A stretch of DNA of 64,000 nucleotides. It comes from Candidatus Gastranaerophilales bacterium. GTDB taxonomy: Bacteria > Cyanobacteriota > Vampirovibrionia > Gastranaerophilales > Gastranaerophilaceae. Shown here one piece after another: positions 20,992-63,106 of this stretch (position 1 is the first letter of the stretch; each line of letters opens with the position of its first letter). The stretch covers positions 1-64,000 of the forward strand of contig CALURL010000011.1 in NCBI GenBank assembly GCA_944323155.1, written 5' to 3'. The notes under the pieces were generated by a model, which saw only the letters and a list, made by a program, of their open reading frames with translations, searched no databases and was not told the origin of the DNA. The translations under genes were made by a program, and so were the position numbers.

Positions 20992-21866
20992 ATGGAAAAA
21001 TTTAATTTTAAAGCTGCTCACGGGGGGGGGGCACGCGTCAGAAGCTGGTTTTAGACAGTTTTATCGGGCTGAAAATTCAACCTGCATTTTTTATTCCTTC
21101 CGAAATTTCGTACTGTCAATTCAGTAAAACTTATAATATTGCTTTTACTCTTGCAGAAGTTTTAATTACTCTTGGTGTTATAGGAGTTGTCGCTGCCTTA
21201 ACCATTCCCAATGTTATTGCAAAGTATCAGGAAATGGCTGCTGTTGTTAGATTAAAAAAGTCTTATTCTGTTGTAACAAATGCTATTAATCGAGCTATGG
21301 CAGAAGAAGGATATTCAAATTATGCAGAATTATTTACAGGAACTAATGCCGAAGTTGCAGATAAAATATTCAAATACATGAATGTTATTGAACGTTGTAA
21401 TAAACTTGATGCTCATGGATGCGGTACACGTTATACCATAAAAAATGCATACAAAGTTAATGATGGTACAGGCGGGGTTGCTAATGATAATGCGCATGGC
21501 GAACGTGCATTACTCATAGACGGTTCTTTAATTAGAATTACGAAAAATGACGATGCTGTGATTTCTGGAAATAGCTGTTCGACAACTTATGAAGCTCATA
21601 AGAAAAATCCGGATGGCAGTTATATCCCTGACGGTAACGGTGGTTATGAAATGGAAACTTACACCGTTCCTATTTGCGGCGCTATTATGATAGATGTTGA
21701 CGGACCAAAAGGTAAAAATCAGTTTGGTTATGATAATTATGCAATCAGGGTTACCGGTACTAAATTGACAAATGATTCATCTGCATACGGCAATATTTTT
21801 GAAACAATGCGAACCGGCAAATTATCGTATGTGAAATATAATTTTGACGATAAATATGAAGATTAA
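20992..21866 (+). CDS. Type IV prepilin-like protein 1, frame broken by G10 (putative phase-OFF)
   Basis: A promoter, AAAGGAG and ATG open a frame (MEKFNFKAAH) that enters ten G at 21022-21031 and stops at 21052 after 20 residues. The frame one base over is open from just before the tract to 21866 and encodes a class III prepilin: KTYNIA, then FTLAEVLITLGVIGVVAALTIPNVI with Glu at +5, then a soluble C-terminal domain with Cys pairs. One extra G (or two fewer) joins them into 291 residues with a 51-residue leader. Such proteins form pilus or pseudopilus tips after PilD-type cleavage. Sequencing error is the main alternative. Confidence 0.75.
21022..21031 (+). repeat. Poly-G tract (G10) at codon 11 of prepilin gene 1
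   Basis: Ten consecutive G in an AT-rich region, right after the tenth codon. G11 or G8 restores the prepilin frame. Homopolymers of this length are classic slipped-strand phase-variation sites. Confidence 0.8.
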
Positions 21867-27090: not shown

Positions 27091-27124
27091 TAACTTGTTG
27101 GAGCAGTATAAGGAGAAAATAGCA

Positions 27125-27960
27125 ATGCTAAATATTAAGAATTATGAAGTCGGGGGGGGGGTAACTCTTTAAGCCTGATAGCAAGGCTTTTCGGGGGTAA
27201 TACTGATTGCCCAAAAAAGAAAATCTTTTATAATAGTGATATTTTACATCACTATTATAAAAGGAAACTTATATTGAAAAAAGGGTTTACACTTGCAGAG
27301 GTCTTGATTACATTAGGGATTATTGGAATAGTTGCGGCTTTAACTTTGCCTAGTTTGATAGCAAATTATCGAAAAAATGTCGCTGAAACTCATATAAAAC
27401 GTGTTGTATCAACATTAAATGAAGCATTTAAATTTGCCCAATTAGATTATGGGGAAGCCGAATACTGGGAACTTTCAGGTTCTCCTGATTTTATAAAAAA
27501 ATATCTAATGCCTTATGTACCTGGCAGTAGTTTTATTAATGAGTCTAATATGGGGGCTATAAAGGTAGAAACATATGATGGCAAATCTTCTTTTGCTTTA
27601 AGCGGCGGATGGTCAAGCGGTTTTAAATTAAAGACAGGTGAAGTAATTGGTGTTCAGACTGCAGATCCAGCAGCTCCAGATTTTATTGGACATCAATTAA
27701 AAATTTTGTTACAGGAAAATAAATATAAAAGGTATATTTCTGGTAAAGATTATTTTGTATTATATTTTAACCCCAAAAGAGGTGTTGTAGATAATATTAG
27801 TACATGGGGTGAACATTGGAATGTTGATTGTTCTAAAGCATTACATGATTCACATGAATATAACCAATGTGTCACATCAGGAGGTCATTCTGCTATGTGC
27901 GCTATGATAATCCAGTGTAATGGCTGGAATATTCCTGATGATTATCCGATAAGATTTTAA
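27125..27960 (+). CDS. Type IV prepilin-like protein 2, frame broken by G10 (putative phase-OFF)
   Basis: TAAGGAGAAAATAGCA and ATG open MLNIKNYEV, which enters ten G at 27152-27161 and stops at 27170. One base over, the frame is open from 27148 to the stop at 27958-27960: NSLSLIARLFGGNTDCPKKK..., then KKG, FTLAEVLITLGIIGIVAALTLP with Glu at +5, and a C-terminal domain with three Cys near the end. One more G, or two fewer, gives 278 residues with a 54-residue leader, almost the same plan as prepilin 1. An internal TTG at 27274 behind AAAAGGAAA would give a conventional short leader, but a strong hairpin covers that site. Confidence 0.75.
27152..27161 (+). repeat. Poly-G tract (G10) at codon 10 of prepilin gene 2
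   Basis: Ten consecutive G, the same length and almost the same codon position as in prepilin gene 1. G11 or G8 restores the frame. Confidence 0.8.
27225..27263 (+). promoter_or_regulatory. Perfect 16-bp hairpin over the internal start of prepilin 2
   Basis: CTTTTATAATAGTGAT and its exact complement at 27248-27263 enclose the loop ATTTTAC. The right arm includes the AAAAGG that would serve as Shine-Dalgarno for the TTG at 27274. No T-run follows, so it is not a terminator. Confidence 0.7.
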
Positions 27961-61104: not shown

Positions 61105-61113
61105 GGGGGGGGG
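61105..61113 (+). repeat. Poly-G tract (G9) in the dnaK intergenic region
   Basis: Nine consecutive G just after a terminator and about 150 bp before dnaK, in an AT-rich context. No coding frame on either strand is convincing here. Confidence 0.7.

Positions 61114-61258: not shown

Positions 61259-63106
<1,848 letters not shown>

Follow-up and report, generated by a model that had tools for sequence, protein, structure and literature searches.

In Bifidobacterium breve UCC2003, a G10-G11 tract splits the first sortase-dependent pilus gene at bbr_0113 and bbr_1889; the second pilus ORF has no active start, and a one-base slip joins the two halves (PMC9187656). Tract lengths vary within the B. 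breve population, and the ON length was enriched in mice (PMC9187656). Phase-variable loci in Neisseria reach maxima of 54 (gonococcal) and 47 (meningococcal), with 36-82 in N. lactamica (PMC5953494), and Campylobacter jejuni NCTC 11168 carries 29 loci with poly-G tracts of at least 7 (PMC4965091, PMC6321876). For Gastranaerophilales or Melainabacteria, a search of the open-access literature, with most subscription journals outside its scope, yielded no account of phase variation.

Here we describe a tract-split prepilin gene in a 64,000-nucleotide stretch of DNA (the window) from a genome (G000; assembly of 1.79 Mb, 99.7% complete) that its protein relatives assign to Candidatus Gastranaerophilales, together with the gene family to which it belongs.

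Two tract-split prepilin genes in one window

The focal gene opens with an ATG at 27125-27127, followed by nine codons to 27151, ten Gs and the triplets GTA ACT CTT TAA (Table 1). Its description in the initial annotation, with a Shine-Dalgarno (SD) sequence, ATG, nine codons, G10 and an early stop, is exact in the sequence. Frame reading also verified that a single added G joins the leader to the prepilin frame: with one extra base, the ATG at 27125 is open to a stop at 27958-27960, giving 278 residues. The same annotation had placed a promoter upstream of 27125, and there our consensus scan returned no match; the best regional match sits downstream of the tract at 27207-27234, in a scan that finds about an equal number of sites in shuffled sequence.

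The focal protein matches the Pfam profile PF07963 (25.3 bits against a cut-off of 21.2) and contains the prepilin methylation motif MKKG/FTLAE, with the invariant columns G/A at -1 and E at +5. Further profile matches, to PilA, PulG and PpdD, are confined to the N-terminal part. The AlphaFold model of the prepilin (pLDDT 81) consists of a long N-terminal helix at residues 7-59 followed by strands, and a fold search of the whole model against the PDB returned no significant match and no solved relative. An example of a predicted peptide upstream of FTLAE is IFYNSDILHHYYK.

A second gene of matching tract length, position and required correction had also been claimed, and it is present: the sister prepilin has a G10 tract, a stop soon after it, and joins its prepilin frame with one added base. 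Overall, the 64-kb window contains 3 runs of at least eight Gs, compared with 0.1 expected from dinucleotide shuffles. A G9 run at 61105-61113 lies outside any prepilin, in an intergenic region that follows a terminator-like hairpin and precedes a dnaK-like gene starting at 61265; it has no obvious frame and may be a leftover or may set the spacing of a promoter.

Table 1 Coordinates of the focal and sister prepilin genes and their elements within the window
Feature	Position	Strand	Basis
Shine-Dalgarno AAGGAG of the focal leader ORF	27110..27115	+	read from sequence
Focal leader ORF as assembled (G10), MLNIKNYEV-GGG-VTL, TAA at 27170-27172	27125..27172	+	sequence, frame analysis
Focal G10 tract; ON length 2 mod 3, i.e. 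G11	27152..27161	+	sequence, frame analysis
Stretch from tract to prepilin start, free of stops in the prepilin frame; translation NSLSLIARLFGGNTDCPKKKIFYNSDILHHYYKRKLI	27162..27273	+	frame analysis, stop counts
Promoter-like TTGCCC-16-TATAAT (10/12), within the fused leader before the internal TTG	27207..27234	+	consensus match only
Perfect 13-base inverted repeat, TTATAATAGTGAT-N7-ATCACTATTATAA, translated within the fused leader	27228..27260	+	
Focal prepilin frame, 228 aa from TTG, MKKG/FTLAEVLITLGIIG; N_methyl PF07963 and DUF6613 PF20318	27274..27960	+	
Sister prepilin of the same design; ATG 20992, G10, FTLAE at 21144, stop 21864-21866; needs +1	20992..21866	+	
G10 tract of the sister gene	21022..21031	+	sequence

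A genome-wide family with a shared register

We examined the surroundings of all 91 runs of at least nine Gs in the genome, counted on both strands, revealing 72 prepilin genes whose leader contains a tract, almost always some nine codons past an SD-ATG start (examples of leaders before GGGG are MKNLFRDVY, MKKDIKHVH and MENLFRKSV). A Pfam search found 84 N-methyl motifs in total, so the tract genes are the large majority of the prepilins in this genome. A prepilin peptidase is also encoded (PF01478 at C6:49789-50187, in a frame of 336 aa).

The ON residue, meaning the tract length modulo 3 that puts leader and prepilin in one frame, is 2 (G11) in 70 of the 72 genes (binomial p ~5e-31, computed on paralogues that are not independent). 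Most paralogues share ancestry, and the common register does not represent 72 independent events. Tract lengths as assembled are 10 in 59 genes, 11 in 10, 12 in 2 and 9 in 1, with 10/72 genes in frame (binomial against one-third, p 2e-4, again for non-independent paralogues).

Between tract and motif, 2,123 codons contain only 2 stops in the prepilin frame compared with 167 and 195 in the remaining frames, and the corresponding counts in a second genome, G001, are 0 compared with 64 and 111; the genes had not been preselected as open. Because stops are nearly absent in the prepilin frame only, the joined frame is under selection. No SD and start follow the tract in 66 of the 72 genes, which can therefore hardly be translated except through it. 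Tract-less prepilins mostly start as SD-ATG-AAA-AAA-GGN-TTT, with the ATG 12 nt before the motif; the start of tract prepilins is found some 70 to 600 nt upstream of the motif. Several leaders (L056, L069, L096, L100 and others) carry repeated in-frame inserts between tract and FTLAE, composed of ATHVDTCANVR units and PLPMGEGARRAGEG units, and reach about 183 codons with the joined frame unbroken.

Eight non-prepilin ORFs are also interrupted by a tract, and 7 of these keep their frame at the assembled length (GT2, GT8, capsule synthesis, nucleotidyltransferase, radical SAM, Mur ligase and one without a Pfam match), compared with 10/72 prepilins (Fisher p 4e-5, among paralogues that share descent). 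Since the other tract ORFs are in frame and the prepilins mostly are not, the commonest length, close to G10, appears to be an equilibrium value for the whole genome, with the prepilins set one base off it. The in-frame tracts at L047:501, L057, L078 and L102:4652 lie inside NTP-transferase/APH, GT2, GT8 and capsule-synthesis genes, which are likely classic phase-variable surface-sugar genes. At L086 (~1444, minus strand), an in-frame G10 lies midway along a gene of the Mur ligase family, where slippage would be costly if the gene is essential. Finally, L393 (contig C2, ~139.3-142 kb) contains an intact mutS and, a few tens of bases past its end on the same strand, a prepilin whose C11 tract is in frame; mutS and this switched-on prepilin may share a transcript.

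Tract length across paralogues and genera

Using tract lengths taken from consensus draft assemblies, we compared paralogues with near-identical flanks (at most 2 differences in 48 nt) and found that tract length differs in 9 of 12 pairs. One group of genes in G001 with nearly identical flanks includes G9, G10, G11 and G12. Tract length thus changes much faster than the flanks, as seen between genes and not within one locus.

Tracts of this kind were present in 99 of 117 sampled genomes of the family, ranging from 0 to 128 per genome. Leaders are species-specific, and the design recurs in other genera with unrelated leader letters. In G001 and G002, the leader reads MLNKDWNF-GGGG-DYLAA with a mode of G10 and an ON residue of 2; G053 likewise has mode G10 and ON 2, G005 has mode G11 and ON 1, and G011 has mode G13 and ON 0. 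Further genera carry G9/C9 tracts or C11-12 tracts. Over eight genome sets, 25/176 genes were ON. G050 is an exception, with 3 of 5 genes in frame, so the modal length is not always OFF. The initial annotation had argued, from the two genes of the window, that a common switch design is hard to explain by random error, and this argument is strengthened by 72 prepilins, 70 of them in the same register, and by other genera with unrelated leaders. Together, these results show how the genes are built and in which register, that selection acts on the joined frame, that 66 of the 72 have no other start, that near-identical paralogues differ in tract length and that related genera repeat the design. 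A phage origin of the tract was considered and rejected, as no phage match was found; IMG/VR viral contigs scanned for the focal tract and a second tract contained no copies.

A proposed slippage switch and its alternatives

Very probably, these genes form a large, mostly-off repertoire of type IV prepilins that undergoes phase variation by replication slippage. Prepilin translation would be gated by a run of G (or C) lying some nine codons past the start, and replication slippage on the DNA would alter the length of this run. At the commonest length, G10 in G000, the ribosome would hit a stop a few codons on and no pilin would be made; a one-base slip to G11 would fuse the leader to the prepilin frame, and the prepilin peptidase would presumably cleave off the long leader ahead of FTLAE, the end of the mature protein. 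Most members would be off in most cells, with a small, changing subset on in each, amounting to a combinatorial, default-off repertoire. We infer that the genes switch in a population, are expressed and serve in pili. MutS is intact in this genome, which we counted against slippage; long tracts can nevertheless slip in cells with mismatch repair.

An improbable alternative is decoding at the RNA level, in which transcriptional slippage or ribosomal frameshifting yields some prepilin from G10 in every cell and the tract acts as a dosage device. A near-uniform length of 10 and the one correction that most of the 72 genes need would fit such a device, as would conservation of the joined frame, and G_GGG_GGG is formally a slippery heptamer that is present before the 0-frame stop (G10, then TAA or TAG within a few codons). 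However, the heptamer needs only seven Gs and observed lengths are 9-18, sense-strand C runs serve equally well, and near-identical paralogues carry G9, G10, G11 and G12. The required correction is +1 in G000, G001 and G053 and nearest to -1 in G005 and G011, so no single programmed shift fits. A programmed -1 frameshift was accordingly rejected as the common mechanism, given ON residues of 2, 1 and 0 with modes of 10, 11 and 13 by genus, and no fixed programmed frameshift can take that role because the correction changes direction between genera; RNA polymerase may slip in either direction. Homopolymer miscounts or two-colour poly-G errors in assembly are a concern in draft assemblies throughout, since long G runs are hard to sequence, but we regard such an artefact as extremely unlikely: the flanks are defined on either side of the tracts, whose position within a single gene family is fixed and which show a frame structure; such tracts recur in many independent assemblies, and at equal tract length other genes of this genome are in frame. 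It is just as hard to credit that the out-of-frame prepilins, though the majority as assembled, are dead copies, as leaders and mature frames are free of stops, nearly all frames are broken at the slippable tract alone, the register is kept in 70/72 genes and other frame lesions have not accumulated at an equal rate.

For the focal gene only, its own promoter and the TTG at 27274 might drive expression, leaving the G10 leader irrelevant or a decaying graft, which we consider possible but doubtful. This gene is among only 6 of the 72 with a possible start downstream of the tract, in this case AAAGGA, a gap of eight bases and a TTG that opens MKKGFTLAE, exactly as tract-less prepilins begin. With the promoter-like site and the inverted repeat, a possible operator candidate, the SD and TTG reproduce the layout of ordinary tract-less prepilins. 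On the other hand, the prepilin frame is open for 37 codons upstream of the TTG, as in genes without an alternative start, the usual start in relatives is ATG and not TTG, and relatives that have lost the internal start translate a similar promoter-like stretch (ICYNSDMVHHYY). The focal gene may thus be translated from two starts: the tract would gate the first, and the second, TTG 27274, would act independently of it. As for the switch design originally proposed for this gene, tract and register stand, while the SD and TTG could bypass the switch; expression from the TTG here is compatible with slippage switching at the level of the family.

Strand bias and a possible mobile leader cassette

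About ten prepilins in G000 have their C run on the sense strand (L015, L043, L055, L056, L065, L076, L083, L093, L100 and L102). These genes point opposite to their neighbours, such that the direction of the G strand tracks the contig and not the gene, and they carry the flanks of G-run genes (TTAC-G10-CA..CGC) on the opposite strand, where 6 of 8 have a similarity score far beyond the 99th percentile obtained with shuffled flanks. The G strand is uniform along contigs, three flips excepted, and GC skew is positive on it at 73 of 91 tracts, from which it is probably the leading strand. A replication-strand proxy based on the coding direction of neighbouring ORFs was weak (44 compared with 34 tracts). 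The shared flanks and the uniform, skewed G strand suggest a DNA unit whose placement follows replication and not the direction of the gene.

Loci L303-L322 of G011 behave differently from the tract genes of G000: in these genes of mode G13, the two halves of the leader assort nearly independently of each other, which would fit a recombination junction at the tract (correlation across the tract 0.04, compared with 0.42 and 0.20 on its two sides). Such a junction is supported in G011 and is not claimed for G000, where the across-tract correlation is 0.38 compared with 0.17 and 0.29 on the sides. Replacement of leaders in orthologues gave one clear case (48% versus 27% identity) among 52 genes, which is too few.

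Tentatively, the SD-ATG-leader-G-tract unit could be a portable cassette that both spreads and is homogenised among the prepilin genes within each species, set one base off equilibrium such that few of the ~70 pilins are displayed and with its G strand fixed to one replication strand. We consider this rather unlikely, and the hints are the flanks shared by C- and G-run genes, the uniform G strand, leader reassortment in G011 and the species-specific leaders.

Significance and comparison with known systems

If the slippage switch is real, a common gut lineage of non-photosynthetic cyanobacteria would possess a set of slippage switches that ranks among the larger ones known, gathered in one pilin family and off by default. 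Cell surfaces would vary between cells, and gene callers would be annotating dozens of pilins as truncated or mis-started. Evolutionary tuning of a resting state, that is, of the ON length relative to the equilibrium length, could then be studied over ~70 parallel copies and in several genera.

The prepilins themselves resemble ordinary Gastranaerophilales prepilins, with an FTLAEVLITLG start and PF07963. As in C. jejuni, poly-G tracts occur in genes for surface structures, and glycosyltransferase-type genes carry them here too. The C. jejuni tracts are spread over mixed gene classes, and we know of no single paralogous family among them that, like the one described here, lies one base away from the modal length.

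The system is also similar to that of Neisseria, where poly-G/C slippage in reading frames controls type IV pili within a large phasome (PMC5953494). There, however, the tracts lie in pilC and glycosylation genes and pilin diversity arises mainly by pilS-to-pilE recombination, whereas here the prepilin genes would be switched in bulk. Antigenic variation of the pilE/pilS type, with one expression locus and start-less silent donors, was rejected for this family, in which each tract prepilin copy has its own SD and ATG.

The closest tested precedent is provided by the B. breve pilus loci, which likewise belong to a gut commensal and combine a tract-split pilus gene with one-base joining (PMC9187656). 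Unlike the two sortase-type clusters of B. breve, the genes described here are ~70 paralogous type IV prepilins in one genome, with the tract placed in a cleavable leader, and constitute a far larger set.
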